Source of the DNA: a virus
DNA: 64,000 nt
IMG/VR virus record: IMGVR_UViG_3300034107_000725
Span: 1 to 64,000 of that record
Direction: 5' to 3' (one strand)
In this document: one piece after another, positions 38,725 to 56,594 of the stretch
How positions within the stretch are numbered: the stretch's first letter is position 1
Layout of the letters: the number at the start of each line of letters is the position of its first letter
Made by a program: the position numbers and the translations under genes
Notes under the pieces: model-generated
What the model saw: only the letters and a program-made list of their open reading frames with translations
Databases searched by the model: none
Told to the model about the DNA's origin: nothing

Positions 38725-40002
38725 ATGCCAGACGAATCACTAGAACAACAGATGAACGCGTCCTTGAGTAAGGCCGTAGGTCAACCCGTTGCAAGCATTG
38801 CTCCAGCACCTCCGGTAGCTGTGTCAGCACCTACACCACTGGCTCCACCAGTTGGTGCAGTCAACCTGGGGAACATCGCAGCAGCTTTGCACCCCACAGC
38901 ACACCGACAGGCGGCAACGCAAGTCGTCGTCAACGACACGTTCCCATACGATGTTGCTTTCAACATGGCATTCCTGGGTTCAGGCCAAGGCGGAGCCAGG
39001 CTGGCTTCCAGCTTCTACGGTCTGGGCTACAGACGTGTAGGGTTGTTCAACACAGCAGAAAGCGATTTCCAAGGCCTGCCTGAAGAGATTCAACGACACA
39101 CGCTGCCGTTGGGCGGTGCAGCCAAAGATGCTCGGTTCGCCGAGCAGGCACTGGTAGGACACGAAGAGGAAATCTGGGATTTGCTACAGAGGTCCTGGGG
39201 CAACGACACAGACTACGGTTTGATCTGTGTAGGGCTTGGCGGCGGCACGGGCTCAGGCACAAGCGGCAGGCTTGTACAGATCGCTCGAGAATACATGGAG
39301 AGCAAGGGCAAACAACCTCGTGTTGGTGTGATTGCTTCAATTCCTTCCCCTACAGAAGGACAACAAGTCTGTCGTAACGCGATCACAGCATTCCAGCATC
39401 TGCTGGAGTTGAAGGTCAGCCCGCTGATTCTGATCGATAACGCTCGGATCAATCAACTGTACCGTCCAGGCATGTCACAGTTGTACACCGTGGCTAACAA
39501 CACGGTCAGTCAACTGTTTCACCTGTTCAACCAATTAGCAGCTGTACACAGTCCGCTAATTACCTTTGACCGAAGCGAACTGGCTCAGTTGCTGGACAAC
39601 GGCATCTGTGTCATGGGGGCAGCCAGCCTCCAGAACGTCACGAGTCCAGCAGACATCTCTGCGGCCATTCGGGATCAGCTCACCAACAATGTGTTGGCTG
39701 AAGTGGATCTCAAGCAAGGCACAAAGGGAGCCTGCCTCTTTGTCGGGGATCAGAATCACCTGGACAACCTAAGCATGGATTTCTTCGATGCCGGATTCGT
39801 TCAGATGAATCGCACGCTCAAAGGCGGCGACAGTGTGGTTCACCGTGGTGTCTATCTTGGAGCAGCTCCGGGACTTCAAGCCTATGCCATGATAAGTGAT
39901 TTAAAACCCCCAATTGCCACGTTGGCAAAGTTGGCCAAAGAGGCCAATATTACAAAGAATCAACTCGGTGGAATCGCCAAATTCTTGGGCGTAAATGACT
40001 GA
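38725..40002 (+). CDS. Tubulin/FtsZ-like GTPase (phage tubulin)
   Basis: A 425-residue member of the tubulin superfamily. After a Pro/Ala-rich tail (residues 1-70), the N-terminal GTPase core shows MAFLGSGQGGARLASSFY (T1-like loop), the tubulin signature GGGTGSG (residues 172-178) and the T7 loop SPLITFDRSELAQLL (Asp282, Glu285). At the position of FtsZ Asp212 it has Glu, as alpha-tubulin does. Phage homologues (TubZ, PhuZ) build dynamic filaments that centre phage DNA or carry capsids. It lies after the portal and glycan genes, with no ParR or TubR-like gene visible beside it. A similar chaperone or bacterial FtsZ copy is unlikely because of the low similarity to FtsZ. Confidence 0.9.
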   Translation: MPDESLEQQMNASLSKAVGQPVASIAPAPPVAVSAPTPLAPPVGAVNLGNIAAALHPTAHRQAATQVVVNDTFPYDVAFNMAFLGSGQGGARLASSFYGLGYRRVGLFNTAESDFQGLPEEIQRHTLPLGGAAKDARFAEQALVGHEEEIWDLLQRSWGNDTDYGLICVGLGGGTGSGTSGRLVQIAREYMESKGKQPRVGVIASIPSPTEGQQVCRNAITAFQHLLELKVSPLILIDNARINQLYRPGMSQLYTVANNTVSQLFHLFNQLAAVHSPLITFDRSELAQLLDNGICVMGAASLQNVTSPADISAAIRDQLTNNVLAEVDLKQGTKGACLFVGDQNHLDNLSMDFFDAGFVQMNRTLKGGDSVVHRGVYLGAAPGLQAYAMISDLKPPIATLAKLAKEANITKNQLGGIAKFLGVND

Positions 40003-48842: not shown

Positions 48843-50477
48843 ATGCCAACAGGTGAATTCTTAAAAAAGTTGCTCTTGACTGCGGGGGCACAAGCAAAGC
48901 CTCTTGCGTCAAGTGCCGCCAAGAATATCCTGCCGTCTGCTGTAGCAGGTACGGCAGGATATGCTGCAGCTCCTTCCCTGAGTGACTGGGCGGGTATTGA
49001 TACAGATATGGGCAGGAAAGTCAATCAGGCAGGTACGGCAGCAGCTTGGGCCTTGGCGGCATCACCGCAAGGGCGTATGCACATATTGACGAAAAGCAAC
49101 GTGCGGGGGTTGAACGATCTCAGTAAGTCTACTGGTAGATCTGTTAAAGAATTACTGGAGCAGGATCCAAACCTTGCTCGTAAGTTTGCTCCGATAAGGG
49201 GTCCGTTGCAAGCAGGGTTGGTAGGATCGTTACCAACAACAGCAGCCCACTACGGGGACTCATTTAGAGGATTAAAGAAAAAATTGGACTTGGCGGTTAA
49301 GACACACGCGGACGACCCAAACCTGTTTAACCCGGATTACCACGTTAATAAGCTATTTGACAAAGGTGTCAACAAGCTGCACGGTTACTTGCCGGGAGCA
49401 GGTACAGTGGCAGGCAGTGCTATCGGTAGTGGCTTAGGCGGTGGGATGGGGCGAATTATATCTAACATGCTCTTACCAGTGGGTCACGGTAATCATGATC
49501 CAATGGACGAAAAAGAATACTACCAACGACGGCGGCGTGAACGTATTCACAGTTTGGCAGGCCTGGCTGGCATGGTCGCAGGCGGTGGGCTGGGGGCACA
49601 CTTTGGTTCGCTGTATGCTCCAAATCTAGGCGAACGTATGCTTGCTAAAGCTCGACCGCTCATAGATCAGGCATACAAAACTCCGTTGCGTGATTTTGTT
49701 AGCGAGCAGACAAGTATGCCAAAGCTCCCGGACATGTCTCGGCTTGCTGGTTTAAGCAAGGCTAGCTCAATACGGGAACTGGCAGTTAAAGCCGCTTTCG
49801 ACACTGCGACAATCAAGGATAAGGCGACTCGCCTGGGAAAATCTGTATGGGGCCACACCAAGGATACGGGCAGATATCTTGCTGATATGCCCACACCGCA
49901 AGCTATGGTGGTTGGCTCCGGATTAGGTAGTGGTTTAGGTTACCTGCGACACTCGGTGCGAGAGTTGATAGACCCTGCGGAGAAAGAAGAGGATCGAAAG
50001 ATTCGGCGTAATGCCGCAATGATCAACGGTGCTATGTTTGGCGGCGGTGCTGTGTTAGCCCGCACCGGGATCAATCGATTTAGGGATTATAATAGTGAAA
50101 TGAGTAAGCTCAATGAGCAAGAAGCTAAGCTGGACAGCAGTTTGGCTGATTCAAACGCAAAAAGCATAGCAAAGCAAAAAGCCATGAAGTATCTTGAATC
50201 ACGCAGAGGTCAGCGGGAGTTGGCGGAGCACGAACGACCTTGGTCAATTAATTTTAATCGAGTTAAGCCAACAGCTTGGCCAAAAGAGGCTCTCAAAGCT
50301 ATAGCACCTTACAGCCCAGAGGCACAAGGATATGCCAATTGGTTGCAGGAACACTGGTGGAACGAGTCTGATCCAAACAAGTCCAAACTTGCGTTAGCTC
50401 TACAGGCCCTCGGCAGCGACAAACCAAAATCACCCGGGGCAAAGACAGAACCAGTCATGACCATGGGTGCAAAGTAA
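48843..50477 (+). CDS. Large glycine-zipper membrane/virion protein
   Basis: A 544-residue protein with three glycine-rich hydrophobic hairpins: residues ~30-72, ~189-255 (GSAIGSGLGGGMGR, charged turn QRRRRERIH, MVAGGGLGAHFG) and ~355-410 (GSGLGSGLGYLRHS, EKEEDRKIRRN, GAMFGGGAVLAR). The third matches the module in the upstream gene closely. Glycine zippers span membranes, so this may be an internal virion or ejection protein. No enzyme motif is visible. It starts 24 bases after the upstream paralogue. Confidence 0.75.
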   Translation: MPTGEFLKKLLLTAGAQAKPLASSAAKNILPSAVAGTAGYAAAPSLSDWAGIDTDMGRKVNQAGTAAAWALAASPQGRMHILTKSNVRGLNDLSKSTGRSVKELLEQDPNLARKFAPIRGPLQAGLVGSLPTTAAHYGDSFRGLKKKLDLAVKTHADDPNLFNPDYHVNKLFDKGVNKLHGYLPGAGTVAGSAIGSGLGGGMGRIISNMLLPVGHGNHDPMDEKEYYQRRRRERIHSLAGLAGMVAGGGLGAHFGSLYAPNLGERMLAKARPLIDQAYKTPLRDFVSEQTSMPKLPDMSRLAGLSKASSIRELAVKAAFDTATIKDKATRLGKSVWGHTKDTGRYLADMPTPQAMVVGSGLGSGLGYLRHSVRELIDPAEKEEDRKIRRNAAMINGAMFGGGAVLARTGINRFRDYNSEMSKLNEQEAKLDSSLADSNAKSIAKQKAMKYLESRRGQRELAEHERPWSINFNRVKPTAWPKEALKAIAPYSPEAQGYANWLQEHWWNESDPNKSKLALALQALGSDKPKSPGAKTEPVMTMGAK

Positions 50478-50482
50478 CACTG

Positions 50483-50800
50483 TTGAAGTACTTTGAGTTC
50501 AAACCCATATCGATTCTGATGCTCGCCTTGTTTTCAAGCCCGTGTGGGCTGATTCTCCGAGCTTATCTACCGATTACCGCCTGGGTGTTGATCATGGGCG
50601 GTGTTTTCTTTGGTACATGGATTTCTGTGGTGGGTGATGGCTGGTTGCAGTATGTGTTATGCTCCGGCTGGTTCTGTCTGGGTTACGCTCTTTCAACCAA
50701 TGCTCCGGAGATTCACTATGCTAAGACCAACGCTTCACGAGCTGGGTATCCATCACCACACCGACAAAGCCGTTTATCACCTGTTCACCGTGATCTATGA
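50483..50800 (+). CDS. Hypothetical membrane protein
   Basis: A 105-residue protein with three likely transmembrane helices in its first ~70 residues (ISILMLALFSSPCGLIL, AWVLIMGGVFFGTWI, YVLCSGWFCLGYAL). The start is TTG and the last 83 bases overlap the methyltransferase gene, so the C-terminal end is uncertain. It fills a gap that has no other gene. Confidence 0.5.
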   Translation: MKYFEFKPISILMLALFSSPCGLILRAYLPITAWVLIMGGVFFGTWISVVGDGWLQYVLCSGWFCLGYALSTNAPEIHYAKTNASRAGYPSPHRQSRLSPVHRDL

Positions 50801-51356
50801 CACGTGGTTTTCAAAGATAAGAGACGAGCAGATTCGTTTGTTGGAGATAGGTGTTTTGATCGGCGGCTCGCTACGCATGTGGGAAGAGTACTTTCCAGGT
50901 GCTGAGATTCACGGAGTAGATATTGACGACAGGACAGAACATGCAACCTCCCGCATCTCTGTTTACCGTGCGGATCAAACCAAGATAGAAGATCTAGAGG
51001 CACTACCTCGAGATTGTCACATCATCGTTGACGACGGTGGCCATACGATGCTGCAACAGCAGATAACACTCAACACGTTGTTTGACAGTCATCTCCTACC
51101 GGGCGGCACCTACGTTCTTGAAGATCTGCACACCTCTGACGTGGAACACTATCCGAAGTGGGCAGCCTACGGTTCAAACATGAGAAACAACACACTAAAG
51201 CTGCTGGAAGATTTGCAACGAGGCGTACTTTCAGAGAATAATGAGTATTACATCAGTGGTGCTGATTTCTGTCGATTAAGGGATCAGATCGCTTTTATTG
51301 AGATCGTAAGGGTCAAAGCGGACTCAGTCACGTCACGCATCGTCAAGAAGACATGA
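50718..51356 (+). CDS. SAM-dependent methyltransferase (MycE/TylF-like)
   Basis: A 212-residue enzyme. The N-terminal HTDKAVYHLFTVIYD, motif I LLEIGVLIGGSLRMWEEYFP and HGVDIDD (beta 2 acid) match the macrocin O-methyltransferase-like family, which methylates sugars in natural products and glycans. IIVDDGGHTM is the motif IV region and holds the likely metal ligands. ATG 50718 follows GGAG by seven bases; the in-frame extension to 50601 is out of the conserved region. A sugar O-methyltransferase fits the many glycosyltransferases. Confidence 0.82.
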   Translation: MLRPTLHELGIHHHTDKAVYHLFTVIYDTWFSKIRDEQIRLLEIGVLIGGSLRMWEEYFPGAEIHGVDIDDRTEHATSRISVYRADQTKIEDLEALPRDCHIIVDDGGHTMLQQQITLNTLFDSHLLPGGTYVLEDLHTSDVEHYPKWAAYGSNMRNNTLKLLEDLQRGVLSENNEYYISGADFCRLRDQIAFIEIVRVKADSVTSRIVKKT

Positions 51357-53428
51357 ACCCTATGCCCACACTGCAAGACTTAGCCAAGGTAGCCGCACTC
51401 CGAAGTGAGGTGACGCTGCAACCACACCAGCAGAAGGTAGTCGACCGCATCAACAGCGGCGATAAACGCCTTCTGCTTTATCACGGACTGGGAAGTGGTA
51501 AGAGTCTTTCGTCATTGGCTGCCGCTGAGGCTGCTGGTGACGATTACGACGTTGTGGTCCCTGCAGCTCTGCGGCCAAACTACCAGAAGGAAGTTGCCAA
51601 GTTTACAGAAGGCTCAAACCCAGAGGTTCTGAGCTACACCGGGATTGGTGCAGGCAAGACATTCCAGACATCACCCAAGACAATCATCTTTGACGAAGCC
51701 CACAGACTTCGTAACCCGGGCACAGCGAGCACACAGGCTGCGACAGAGTTGGCCAATGAAGCGGAGAACCTTCTGCTCCTGACAGGCACACCGATCACCA
51801 ACTCACCGACAGATCTGGCACCACTGCTCTCGATGCTTCGCAAAGAGAAGATCACACCAGAGCAGTTTGAGCGAAACTACATTGGACACCGCAAGGTCTA
51901 TCCAACCTGGCTCAGTCGTCTGACAGGACGAGGCGTAGGTGAAGAAGCCTATGTCAAGAATGAAGACAATTTGCGGGAACAGCTCAAAGGCCTGATCGAC
52001 TATCAGCCCAGCAAGACACCGGAAGGCGTAAACGTCAACGAAGAAACGGTACGGGTGCCGCTGAGTCGAGGACAGTCACGCATACAGCAGGCGGTGAGGG
52101 ATAAGATCCCGCCAGAGTATGCCTGGAAGTTGGACAAAGAGTATCCGCTCACTCGAGAAGAGTTGAGTCGGATGAACTCGTTTCTGACGGGACTACGGCA
52201 GTCAAGCCTCTCGACTCAACCCTTTCGCGGTGATCGTGACCCACTCAACGCGTTTGACGAATCAAGCAAACTCCAAAAGGCGTTTGGAGATTTGCAAGAA
52301 ACACTGAAGACAGATCCACGTAAAAAAGCCTTGGTGTATTCCAACTACATCGACGCAGGCCTGGGTCCATATGCAGCAGCTCTTCAGCGAGCCAAGATCC
52401 CGTATGGCATGTATCACGGCAGCATGCCAGTTGAGGAACGTAAAAAAGCTCTTCAAGACTATAACGAAGGAACACTGAAAGCTCTGCTGCTTGGCCCAGC
52501 CGCTGCGGAAGGCATCAGCACACAAGGCACAAGTTTGATTCAGCTGCTTGATCCTCACTGGCATGAGTCACGAGGACGACAAGCCGAAGGACGTGGGCTG
52601 CGATTCGACTCACACGAAGGCTTACCATCTGAGCTGAAAAACGTAGCGATAAAGCGTTATCTATCGGAAAGTCAGGATCCGTCCTTTATAATGTCACTTC
52701 TTGGTGCACGAAGACAACGCACAGGTGACGAGATCTTAGAACGGCTGGCTGCTAATAAAGAGCAGCTCAATAATCAGTTTCGTAAGATCCTTCAGGAGGA
52801 AGGCAGTTCGATGAATAAGCAATCGTCCCACCGCAGGAATGTTCCAATCGGTATTGCCTATGACCCAGAGATGCACGCGGCGTTGATTCGCTGGGAAAAT
52901 GCCAAAAGCAAGCGGTTGTCACCCGGATTGCAGCGACAAGTGCAGGCAAACCTGGGTTGGACAGGCAAACAAGTGGCGGACGACCTGGATCTTGTTGAGT
53001 TGTTGATGGAGCAGGAAGACGCCAAAGAACAAAGCATGAAAGCCACTGGCCCGATACAGGCGTTGGCCAAGATGGCTGCATGCGGCGACACATGCAGATG
53101 CGGGCAGACTGAGAACGAATGCACCTGCTCTGACGTTGAGAAGCTGGCACGCCTGGTCGCCAAACAGGCTTCCGGTGGAGCCTGGACACGAGCGGAGGGT
53201 AAGAGCGAGTCAGGCGGTCTCAACGCCAAAGGACGAGCCAGCCTCAAAGCTCAGGGACAGAACATCAAACCACCAGTGACCGAAGACAAACCTACGGGCG
53301 AGCGAGCTGGGCGTAAGTCCAGCTTTTGTGCTCGTATGGGTGGCATGAAGAAAAAGCTGACCAGCTCAGAGACTGCCAATGATCCAGATAGCCGTATCAA
53401 CAAAGCACTGAGAAAATGGAATTGCTGA
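51353..53428 (+). CDS. SNF2-like helicase with DUF6321-type tail
   Basis: A 691-residue protein. The N-terminal ~450 residues are an SNF2/NPH-I-type helicase: HGLGSGKSL (Lys50), IIFDEAHRLRNP, LLTGTPITN and QAEGRGLRFDSH (motif VI). After a linker, residues ~577-594 hold six Cys (CGDTCRCGQTENECTC), a possible zinc site, and the last ~85 residues match DUF6321, a basic domain known from phage proteins: AWTRAEGKSESGG, LKAQGQNIKPP, SFCARMGGMKKKLTS. This fusion among virion genes suggests the helicase is packaged or acts in genome ejection or packaging. ATG overlaps the previous stop. Confidence 0.85.
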   Translation: MNPMPTLQDLAKVAALRSEVTLQPHQQKVVDRINSGDKRLLLYHGLGSGKSLSSLAAAEAAGDDYDVVVPAALRPNYQKEVAKFTEGSNPEVLSYTGIGAGKTFQTSPKTIIFDEAHRLRNPGTASTQAATELANEAENLLLLTGTPITNSPTDLAPLLSMLRKEKITPEQFERNYIGHRKVYPTWLSRLTGRGVGEEAYVKNEDNLREQLKGLIDYQPSKTPEGVNVNEETVRVPLSRGQSRIQQAVRDKIPPEYAWKLDKEYPLTREELSRMNSFLTGLRQSSLSTQPFRGDRDPLNAFDESSKLQKAFGDLQETLKTDPRKKALVYSNYIDAGLGPYAAALQRAKIPYGMYHGSMPVEERKKALQDYNEGTLKALLLGPAAAEGISTQGTSLIQLLDPHWHESRGRQAEGRGLRFDSHEGLPSELKNVAIKRYLSESQDPSFIMSLLGARRQRTGDEILERLAANKEQLNNQFRKILQEEGSSMNKQSSHRRNVPIGIAYDPEMHAALIRWENAKSKRLSPGLQRQVQANLGWTGKQVADDLDLVELLMEQEDAKEQSMKATGPIQALAKMAACGDTCRCGQTENECTCSDVEKLARLVAKQASGGAWTRAEGKSESGGLNAKGRASLKAQGQNIKPPVTEDKPTGERAGRKSSFCARMGGMKKKLTSSETANDPDSRINKALRKWNC

Positions 53429-53466: not shown

Positions 53467-53967
53467 GTGAAGCAAGCCGCTGACACTGGCCCACAAAGCA
53501 TGCTGCAAAATCTGGTTTTTAACTGCATCGACCTGAGCTTGCTGTTCAAGCATTGCCACTGGAATGTCAGAGGCGTGATGTTTAAACCACTACACGACTT
53601 TCTTCAAACGGTCTACGAAACTCTGTCTGACATCACTGATGACGTGGCCGAGCGTCAGGTGATTATGGGTACTCCGTCCAGCGGCCTGATAGCTGGAGTT
53701 GTAGCCCAGACAGCCATGGATCCTTTACCGGTCAAATTCCTCTCTCCTGAGGAAATTGTTAACGAATTGACCGACCGGCTTACTCAGCTGGTTGAGCAGT
53801 TCAACGACGCGATACGTACTGAACAGAATCCAGTCACCGGCAATATGCTTCAGGACATGACTGCAAGACTTGAGAAACATTTATGGATGCTTCGAAGTCA
53901 AAAGGCAGAGGTTGAGTATGCCACCAAGGTGGCCCTAGCTCGAGCTGCAGTCCATTTACGAGGTTAA
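53467..53967 (+). CDS. Dps-like ferritin
   Basis: A 166-residue Dps-type protein. LLFKHCHWNVRG and HDFLQTVYETLSDITDDVAERQ line up with the ferroxidase residues of E. coli Dps: His51 (here His31), His63 (His43), Asp78 (Asp58) and Glu82 (Glu62) are kept, but Asp67 is Gln47. The family forms 12-mers that store iron, detoxify peroxide and coat DNA. GTG start with TAGGAG upstream. Placed among virion genes, it may protect packaged or replicating DNA or affect host stress. Confidence 0.85.
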   Translation: MKQAADTGPQSMLQNLVFNCIDLSLLFKHCHWNVRGVMFKPLHDFLQTVYETLSDITDDVAERQVIMGTPSSGLIAGVVAQTAMDPLPVKFLSPEEIVNELTDRLTQLVEQFNDAIRTEQNPVTGNMLQDMTARLEKHLWMLRSQKAEVEYATKVALARAAVHLRG

Positions 53968-53981
53968 ATTCCGTTGACAAT

Positions 53982-54009
53982 TCCCCAGGAGGGAACGCCA
54001 TAATGCCAC
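53982..54009 (+). repeat. Leader/start-site repeat, copy 1
   Basis: A 28-base stretch with the ribosome site AGGAGGG and the start codon of the metalloprotease-module gene. It recurs with two mismatches at 54873-54900 inside the same gene. Confidence 0.8.
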
Positions 54010-56594
54010 CGCCAACCAAATATGGACCAAACACTCCGGCAAGTCCAGTTGCACCGGCTCCCACACCAGTCGCACCCATTCCGGCAAGTCCAGTTGCACC
54101 AGCAGCCACACGTGTTGCACCAGCAGCCACACCAGTCGCACCCATTCAGCACCGGCCAGCCATAGTACGTAGCACGCCGCAAGGTCTGGTTGCTTCGTTG
54201 GCGGATCAACTGCCTTTAGGGTATAAAAATGAAGCTCAGGCGGCGGCCTCCGCTTATCGGAAGCTCAACCCAAAATTAAATTGGCCTTCGGATATCTCAC
54301 ATCGGGCACTCAATCGGCAAGTTCCGGTGAATTACGTGTCAGAGTTTGATGATCCAAGTACTAACGGACAATACCAACCGGCCACAGATCAAATATCTTT
54401 GCGGGCAGGGCTTAAGCCAAAAGCCATGGGAACGACATTGCAGCACGAGTTGACACACGCAACGCAGTTCCAGGGCAATATACCTGTACAACGCAGTTCG
54501 ACTACGCAGCCTATGCTTCAAAAGACGATGGAGAGCCAAAACTACGATCCTGCTACGGCTAGATCGTATTCAAGCTATATGACGGATCCAACAGAACAAG
54601 AGGCTTTCTTGGCGGGGCTTAAGCGAAATCACTATGTACAAACGGGTAAGCATATACGAACTAAAGATGAAGCTCGAAAAATGCTAATGGACTTGCCAAA
54701 CACACCCGAAAATAAGGATCAAGAGGCGTCTATGGGTACTTTGCTTAGGGCTCCGCAACTAAACAATACACCCGAAGGTGCAGCGGCCAAGGCTCAGTGG
54801 ATTGAGTCGCTCAGTAAAATGCTACCCGGACTGGTCCAAGGTAACTCACTAACTCTCGGCAAGACCGCAAACTTCCCAGGAGGGAACGCCATGATGCCAC
54901 AAGCAGCTCCAAACGGTTTCAACCCAAATGTCTTTAGTCACAACAACTTCTCCGGGACTTTCCCGATGAGTCAGGCTTTGCCCGCTAAACCGAACCCACT
55001 GTCCGCAGCACCACAAATGGGTGGTGTGAAAGCTGATGCCAATGGCATTCAGGCTGCGATGGCCAAGCGAGGCTCGCAGGATAACAGTGCTCCTCGTTGT
55101 TCATCCGCTGGTGAGAGTAAGGGTGTTGGTTACAAGATGGATGATGAAGGTCACACGACTGGTGGCAGTGCGTTTAGCACACTTGACAAATACATGAAGA
55201 AAGCTGGGCTTAATAGCTTTCAAACTCAGTTTTTCGGGCGTCTAATTCAGTCTGGCATGAATGAAGCTCAGCTACATCATGCGGTTAAACAAGCTCAAAT
55301 TCAGTTTGGCGAAAAGGTTGCCAGCGAACTGGTTGACGGATTGGAAAAGCTGGCGGTTACACCTTTCTCAGGTGCGGGTCGTCTGGCAAGAGAATTTGGC
55401 ACTGATTTGCTTAACACAGGAACGCGATATGCCGGTAATGCGATTAACGGTATTGGCGGGTTTGCCAGAGGTTTAGTGGGCAAGAAAGTTGCTCCCGGAG
55501 CGTCCGAGATAGGAGCCATGGCACAGCAGGCAGGACGTAAAGCAAAAACGCTCGGTCGTAAGTATGTGATAAATCAGGACGTGGGTACAGGCATGGCAAC
55601 CGGTGCCTTTAACCCGTACACCAGTACGCTATACGACGAACAGGGAAATCTGGACTTAGCCACTACGGCTCGCAATGCAGCCCTTGGTGGATTGGCTGGC
55701 GGTGTTGTGAAGCAAACTCCACTAAGGTGGAACGCAAGACAACGCCAGGAGCAGCTGATGGCAGGCAGCGGTATTGGGCTTGCTGGAGGACATTTGGCAA
55801 ACGCGTTAGGTGCCGATGTTGATCCGACGCGAGCGGCTCAAATTGGAGGTGCTGCGGGTTTACTTCCTCGCAACATCAGAGGCAGGAACATGTCAAAAGT
55901 TATGCCAAAATTTGATCCTACGGACATCGGTGCCCAGGCAAAGAATGTAAGGGCAGCTGGCCGTTACGCTCGTGACGCAGCTAAAAACGCTCCGGAAGGT
56001 AGTTTGGCAAAGGCTACAATGATTGGCGGCGGTTTGGGGCTGGGCGTAGGTATGCCTATGGCAACTTATGCAGGGCTTTCCCAGATGGGGACCAACGCAG
56101 GAAATGCAGCCATGCAGCAGCCTGAAGTGCAATCAACTCTAAAAAGGTTAAATGCTACACAACAACAGGTGCAGCAAGTTGCAGACAAGGTAAACCGGTT
56201 TGCCGCCCCGTTTCAGGATGACAAAGGCCAGTTCGATCTCATGGGCGGGCTTAGACGCCAGCTCGGTTTAGGCGAAGGCGGCACTGGGTTGGGTGCTGTG
56301 GGTGACTACTTGCGACAAAATCCACAGCTGGCCTCTGCCGGTTTGTTGAGCTTGTTGGGCATGGGTACTGGTTACATGGCTGGCGGTGGGCGTGGTGCGG
56401 CTTTGGGCGGCCTGTCTGCTCCTTTGCTAAACTACTTGGTGCAGTCACAACTTGGCGGAAATACCGCACCTGACATAGCTGGTACAAACCAAGCCGCAGC
56501 TCCTGCGGCTTCAGCAACTCCCGGCGTAGGTGAGTTTGACAGGAATCGGGAGAATGAAATCGTACAGCAACAACTCGGCTATAGTCCTAACTAA
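54003..56594 (+). CDS. Metalloprotease-module glycine-rich virion protein
   Basis: An 863-residue protein. Residues ~10-50 are Pro/Ala/Val tandem repeats. Residues ~55-290 carry LQHELTHATQF (HExxH; His148, Glu149, His152) and TDPTEQEAF (Glu198 or Glu200 as third ligand), as in gluzincins. From residue 297 a second part begins at an in-frame ATG with its own ribosome site, which copies the leader of the whole gene. This C-terminal part has SF-FGRLIQ-type helices and Gly-rich hydrophobic stretches (IGGGLGLGVGM, LLGMGTGYMAGGG) as in the other glycine-zipper proteins. It may cut host wall or virion proteins during entry. The internal start could give a ~567-residue isoform. Confidence 0.78.
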   Translation: MPPPTKYGPNTPASPVAPAPTPVAPIPASPVAPAATRVAPAATPVAPIQHRPAIVRSTPQGLVASLADQLPLGYKNEAQAAASAYRKLNPKLNWPSDISHRALNRQVPVNYVSEFDDPSTNGQYQPATDQISLRAGLKPKAMGTTLQHELTHATQFQGNIPVQRSSTTQPMLQKTMESQNYDPATARSYSSYMTDPTEQEAFLAGLKRNHYVQTGKHIRTKDEARKMLMDLPNTPENKDQEASMGTLLRAPQLNNTPEGAAAKAQWIESLSKMLPGLVQGNSLTLGKTANFPGGNAMMPQAAPNGFNPNVFSHNNFSGTFPMSQALPAKPNPLSAAPQMGGVKADANGIQAAMAKRGSQDNSAPRCSSAGESKGVGYKMDDEGHTTGGSAFSTLDKYMKKAGLNSFQTQFFGRLIQSGMNEAQLHHAVKQAQIQFGEKVASELVDGLEKLAVTPFSGAGRLAREFGTDLLNTGTRYAGNAINGIGGFARGLVGKKVAPGASEIGAMAQQAGRKAKTLGRKYVINQDVGTGMATGAFNPYTSTLYDEQGNLDLATTARNAALGGLAGGVVKQTPLRWNARQRQEQLMAGSGIGLAGGHLANALGADVDPTRAAQIGGAAGLLPRNIRGRNMSKVMPKFDPTDIGAQAKNVRAAGRYARDAAKNAPEGSLAKATMIGGGLGLGVGMPMATYAGLSQMGTNAGNAAMQQPEVQSTLKRLNATQQQVQQVADKVNRFAAPFQDDKGQFDLMGGLRRQLGLGEGGTGLGAVGDYLRQNPQLASAGLLSLLGMGTGYMAGGGRGAALGGLSAPLLNYLVQSQLGGNTAPDIAGTNQAAAPAASATPGVGEFDRNRENEIVQQQLGYSPN
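54036..54146 (+). repeat. Tandem repeat, Pro/Ala/Val coding
   Basis: A 45-base unit is followed by a 66-base version with an internal 21-base expansion; both start CCGGCAAGTCCAGTTGCACC and end CCAGTCGCACCCATT. They encode PASPVAP and TPVAPI units in the N-terminal linker. Such repeats vary by slippage. Confidence 0.85.
54873..54900 (+). promoter_or_regulatory. Internal ribosome site and start (leader repeat, copy 2)
   Basis: AGGAGGGAACGCC and ATG 54891 repeat the gene's own leader at 53982-54009 with two changes. The ATG is in frame with the full gene (residue 297), so translation from here would yield a protein without the metalloprotease module. Confidence 0.7.

Follow-up and report, generated by a model that had tools for sequence, protein, structure and literature searches.

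A duplicated start region brackets a metallopeptidase-like module in front of a conserved phage core protein

The start region of an 863-residue gene in a large, uncultivated phage is present twice in one reading frame, and the two copies bracket a metallopeptidase-like module. We think it probable that this module was joined in front of an older core, that a second start region was left at the join, and that the outer start and probably also the inner one are used. An older phage gene would have received a metallopeptidase-like domain between its start signal and its body, the core, and the second copy of the start region would be a remnant of the join. The outer start would then give a metallopeptidase-core protein of 863 residues, and the inner start probably the core alone, with 567 or 566 residues.

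The window is the whole stretch of DNA analysed, 64,000 nucleotides, and is part of a 193,990-bp virus record (IMGVR_UViG_3300034107_000725, here G000; other G numbers denote related genomes). The features of the locus are listed below.

51353-53428, + strand: gene for an SNF2-like helicase with a C-terminal DUF6321, a synteny anchor common to relatives
53467-53967, + strand: Dps/ferritin-like gene immediately upstream; in G002 and G047 a Dps domain lies at the syntenic position ahead of the core
53979-54009, + strand: repeat copy 1, with leader, Shine-Dalgarno AGGAGG (53987-53992) and start ATG 54003 (10-nt spacing)
54003-56594, + strand: 863-aa ORF, comprising a Pro/Ala-rich lead, the metallopeptidase-like module and the core
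54003-54170, + strand: Pro/Ala-rich lead, about residues 1-56, with short internal repeats
54171-54863, + strand: metallopeptidase-like module, DUF6782-like, 27-28% identical to the G002 module
54444-54458, + strand: HELTH, within the module
about 54594-54608, + strand: conserved E-x-E-A-F, a possible third metal ligand
54870-54900, + strand: repeat copy 2, with AGGAGG (54878-54883), ATG 54891 (7-nt spacing) and ATG 54894 (10-nt spacing)
54891-56594, + strand: core, the predicted short product, conserved in clade members without the module
55209-55355, + strand: most conserved core domain, residues 403-451, FFxRLIQxG...AVKQA..QFG...EL..GL.KLA

Upstream in the window, positions 38725-40002 encode a Tubulin/FtsZ-like protein (PF00091, E 1.4e-8, above the cut-off), as in some large phages.

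The repeated start region and the inner start

Pairwise comparison revealed a 31-nt direct repeat, with 28 of 31 positions identical between 53979-54009 and 54870-54900. It contains the leader, a perfect AGGAGG, the ATG and CCAC. The first-pass annotation had described a 28-nt leader plus ATG repeated in frame at 54873-54900 with two changes, and had placed an HExxH motif between the copies. Both descriptions are borne out: 26 of 28 positions agree with 53982-54009, and HELTH occupies residues 148-152, between the copies. The copies are 891 nt (297 codons) apart and so in frame. The frame is open throughout 54003-56594 and runs across both of them, and the second copy is translated in it as N-F-P-G-G-N-A-M-M-P. 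Outside the repeat, identity falls to background (23% in the 60 nt upstream and 27% in the 60 nt downstream).

It is highly improbable that the repeat has nothing to do with the fusion and arose by chance, by convergence towards a strong ribosome site or as the binding site of a regulatory protein. As a strong ribosome site AGGAGG is common, but the identity spans 31 nt, including the spacer and the first codons. A 25-nt pattern with up to 3 mismatches matched the two repeat sites only, with 0 matches in 100 shuffles. When the 31-nt start region of each of 171 genes of the G000 genome was matched against the gene's own ORF, the 863-aa gene gave 3 mismatches in 31 and each of the other genes at least 12. 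The shuffles and this control together rule out a chance origin. A search of the complete 193,990-bp record at the DNA level found no third copy; with two copies in the record, the sequence is ruled out as a general leader of the phage.

Beyond G000, the 54-kb leader was found in IMG/VR only in a second, near-identical contig, which has the same sequence. This contig argues against misassembly and is no independent evolutionary evidence. Compared with it, the window has a 14-nt difference (AAGTAACACTGTTG) at about 50472-50485, at the end of a 544-aa gene, which would abolish the stop of that gene in the other contig.

The inner copy has the properties of an internal in-frame start with its own ribosome site. 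Starting at 54891 would give 567 residues and starting at 54894 would give 566. The outer copy has an ATG only at a spacing of 10 nt, whereas the inner copy has ATGs at 7 and 10 nt; with its 7-nt spacing, the inner ATG is better placed than the outer one behind the same perfect AGGAGG. The calculated Shine-Dalgarno pairing is -10.8 kcal/mol at both copies, on the assumption of a standard anti-Shine-Dalgarno sequence, which may not be that of the host. Under the same assumption, an equally strong Shine-Dalgarno is found at only 3 of the 885 internal ATGs in the genome, two of which are 54891 and 54894, and at 7 of 175 gene starts. The opening energies, 9.1 and 10.4, lie in the upper part of the gene-start range (median 7.8, 90th percentile 12.3). 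Dual initiation, giving products of 863 and 567 or 566 residues, is therefore predicted as probable.

The core and its N-terminal parts in relatives

No relative of the 863-aa protein was found among the cultured phages of the collection, and GTDB genomes gave no match. When IMG/VR was searched directly with the whole protein or either half, the near-identical contig alone was returned. Relatives were reached through an alignment of part of the phage RNA polymerase, which led to 74 IMG/VR loci, and later through a G002 gene. The 863-aa protein was matched by 5 of the 40 records examined from the RNA polymerase search. In G000 itself, RNA polymerase beta/beta'-like subunits are encoded by separate genes at 84.0-91.3 kb (L007:29-2443 and L007:4153-7335); in Salmonella phage Arash, a 1,525-aa protein contains the part that corresponds to the first of them.

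The core is present in G001, G002, G018 and G020, and the later search added G047 and G048. A 1,759-aa protein of G017 contains the most conserved core domain (residues 403-451) twice. In G001, G002, G018, G020 and G047/G048 there is no metallopeptidase in front of the core, which provides the comparison with module-free relatives that the first-pass annotation had proposed as a check. Its account of a module placed in front of an ancestral shorter gene gains support from these genomes, from the homologous core start with a GAGG-type site in G002 and G047, and from the top-ranking Shine-Dalgarno at the inner start. A free-standing core, however, was found in no relative; other N-terminal parts are attached to it. 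These are a NUDIX domain in G002 (E 1e-18) and G047 (E 2e-19), and Gly-rich segments of 255-300 aa, with no Pfam match above the cut-off, in G001, G018 and G020. Across these genomes the core is a conserved phage protein whose N-terminal parts are interchangeable. Helicase or DUF6321 genes lie near it in G001, G002 and G020. The fusion of the metallopeptidase-like module to the core is seen in one independent genome only, G000.

In G002, a P-loop kinase-like domain is fused in front of Dps (L103:9335-10600), and a related kinase in G017 is part of one protein with a NUDIX-like part. The NUDIX-core genes of G048 (L187) and G047 (L186) show a 2-nt difference, with an open frame around the core of 350 versus 565 aa. 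A 3,030-aa protein of G000 (105906-114998; L008:1906-10998) has very many Gly-rich internal repeats.

The core start in G002 and G047 is an internal Met homologous to 54891/54894 (MFPAAGQPG / MLPAMQPG / MPQAAPNG), and it is preceded by AAAGAGG, with GAGG 5-6 nt upstream. No Met is found at the junction in G001, G018 or G020. The six codons directly before the core start are identical between G002 and G047, compared with 44% of same-residue codons overall (0.437^6, about 0.007). Another run of six occurs in the same gene, and we take this conservation as modest, supporting evidence only. As read from these genomes, the core exists independently of the module, and its start is kept at the join in the nearest relatives that have a Met there.

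The module and its relative in a second gene

The first-pass annotation called the module a metalloprotease. HELTH supports that name, but the family match is barely above the cut-off of the DUF6782 model (PF20573): against a cut-off of 27 bits, the module alone scores 29.6, the genome search 28.6 and the whole protein 26.7. The same model did not detect the related module in G002, and at the family level the metallopeptidase call appears marginal. HELTH and, downstream of it, the Glu-containing E-x-E-A-F are conserved between G000 and G002; a Glu of the latter motif may be a metal ligand, and the module may have enzyme activity. An AlphaFold2 model of the module built from two sequences had a pLDDT of 43, and comparison with PDB sequences gave no meaningful match. 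Pfam and PHROGs searches revealed no further enzymatic domain in the 863-aa protein. At 142.45-143.37 kb (L009:18454-19368), G000 also encodes a Matrixin (Peptidase_M10, E 3e-33) with a peptidoglycan-binding domain.

The related module in G002 (27% identity, E 1e-10), in which HELTH, E-x-E-A-F and further positions are conserved, belongs to a different gene, located some 5 kb upstream from the core. This module, too, is bracketed by an in-frame direct repeat, of 37 nt with 36 of 37 positions identical and the copies 1,155 nt (385 codons) apart. This repeat covers the start codon and about nine codons, and it looks like a scar. The Shine-Dalgarno pairing is -6.6 at the outer start and -2.2 at the inner one, which amounts to no Shine-Dalgarno at the inner copy. 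A duplicate of this kind therefore need not be a working start in general.

The G002 repeat lends some weight to another explanation for G000, in which the start region was duplicated at joining, the inner copy is unused and only the full-length protein is made. The G000 repeat could be young enough for an unused site to have stayed intact. We nevertheless judge this explanation unlikely: in G000 the inner copy has a perfect AGGAGG, an ATG at 7 nt and a predicted accessibility within the gene-start range, and the NUDIX-core genes of G002 and G047 retain a ribosome site at the homologous place.

G047 and G048 are close to G002, with about 73-80% DNA identity in the longer shared stretches. Their counterpart of the G002 module gene has 77 aa and no module, its N-terminal stretch being joined to the C-terminal end. 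A deletion within a Gly-rich stretch would explain this as well as an older state would, and it favours neither direction of change at the G002 locus.

In-frame, non-tandem reuse of a start region was found twice, at G000 54003 and G002 59678, and both cases bracket the module. The scan covered 1,693 ORFs of at least 150 aa from seven genomes, a count that is approximate, with some genomes partly fetched and pieces overlapping. Repeat-rich genes and genes of tandem units were excluded from the count. A G017 gene that repeats its own start region was set aside as tandem related units, and a G002 match at 55853 as a repeated domain, from its match pattern. The 1,759-aa protein of G017 (L104:1803-7082) consists of units that each open with DMTPxAxxFF and looks like fused tandem units; KGG-coding, ribosome-site-like DNA precedes the inner ones.

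Origin of the repeat and comparison with known systems

We infer an insertion of the module at the gene start that also duplicated the start region. The first-pass annotation had the module placed in front of the shorter gene 'by duplication', which holds for the start region and fails for the module, which is no duplicate of the core: a diverged core duplicate was rejected since the two show no similarity. The fusion would have been recent, as read only from the identity of the repeat copies, and the direction of the event is likewise a reading of the sequences. A module-free version of the leader, as expected from a precise loop-out between the repeats, was not found in IMG/VR. Backward template switching, staggered-break repair and shared-leader recombination are candidate mechanisms for the duplication.

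Shared-leader recombination would give the repeat a different origin, whether or not the inner start is used. On this account the module would have arrived as a gene of its own that had the leader too; the leader would have provided the homology for the insertion, and the stop of the module would have been lost later, fusing the genes. Leaders are in fact duplicated without fusion: at 192.36-192.99 kb of G000 (L012:8358-8990), three small, unrelated genes in a row have near-identical leaders ending in GAAGGYTGAGATG, and two unrelated neighbours in G020 share one. Cluster K mycobacteriophages likewise have a conserved short sequence at the starts of unrelated genes, with many copies per genome (PMC3203893). 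In G000, by contrast, the leader at 54 kb occurs just twice in the record, not before many genes, and brackets one module; the genome has no further copy, and the near-identical contig is the one other IMG/VR sequence that has it. The G002 repeat, moreover, extends about nine codons into coding sequence, and such sharing would be unexpected of a donor gene. This favours target duplication over a donor leader, without proving it, and we regard recombination between shared leaders as possible but doubtful.

A broader reading is that in this phage group a metallopeptidase module is recurrently inserted at gene starts and duplicates the start region of the target. The recipient would thereby retain its original start and gain an optional enzyme-tagged form. 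It is suggested by both non-tandem duplications in the seven genomes bracketing relatives of one module in different genes. We put it forward very tentatively, as an unlikely generalization at present.

The predicted arrangement resembles that of phage lambda C/Nu3, where protease and scaffold are made from one frame with an in-frame overlap. In both, a protease domain stands in front and the C-terminal part is made alone from an internal start, which in our case is predicted. Nu3 is a scaffold, whereas the core is compared with it by gene layout alone and a scaffold role for it is unsupported. We know of no duplicated start in C/Nu3.

In two-polypeptide phage endolysins, in-frame internal starts yield a short product that has been shown experimentally (PMC9430671). 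As predicted for the 863-aa gene, a full-length and a C-terminal polypeptide come from a single ORF, the latter from an internal start, and both end at the same stop. The short product of the 863-aa gene, unlike theirs, is predicted, its protein is no endolysin as far as tested, and its inner start region duplicates the outer. Zincin-like MPTase domains are common in polyvalent proteins of phages and conjugative elements (PMC5512222). The 863-aa protein resembles these in its putative HExxH zincin-like domain, of the kind found joined to varied domains in long phage proteins. The 863-aa protein differs in having one enzymatic domain only, rather than at least two conflict-related domains in one protein, and the analysis found nothing that links it to virions. 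Phage domain mosaicism also combines a conserved part with interchangeable, non-homologous N-terminal domains (PMC10684548); the core shows the same exchange of N-terminal parts, but the join in G000 has a duplicated start region.

Domain swapping in phages is well known, yet joins that still show their traces are seldom seen. By analogy with phage genes that have in-frame internal starts (PMC9430671), the likely use of the arrangement would be to give a mixture in which some copies of the core are tagged with the enzyme and the others are plain. A duplicated start region would be a simple way of gaining a domain while keeping the old product. The presence of this one protease-like module in both clean cases suggests that it is mobile, or that an optional, tagged form of the enzyme has been selected for.
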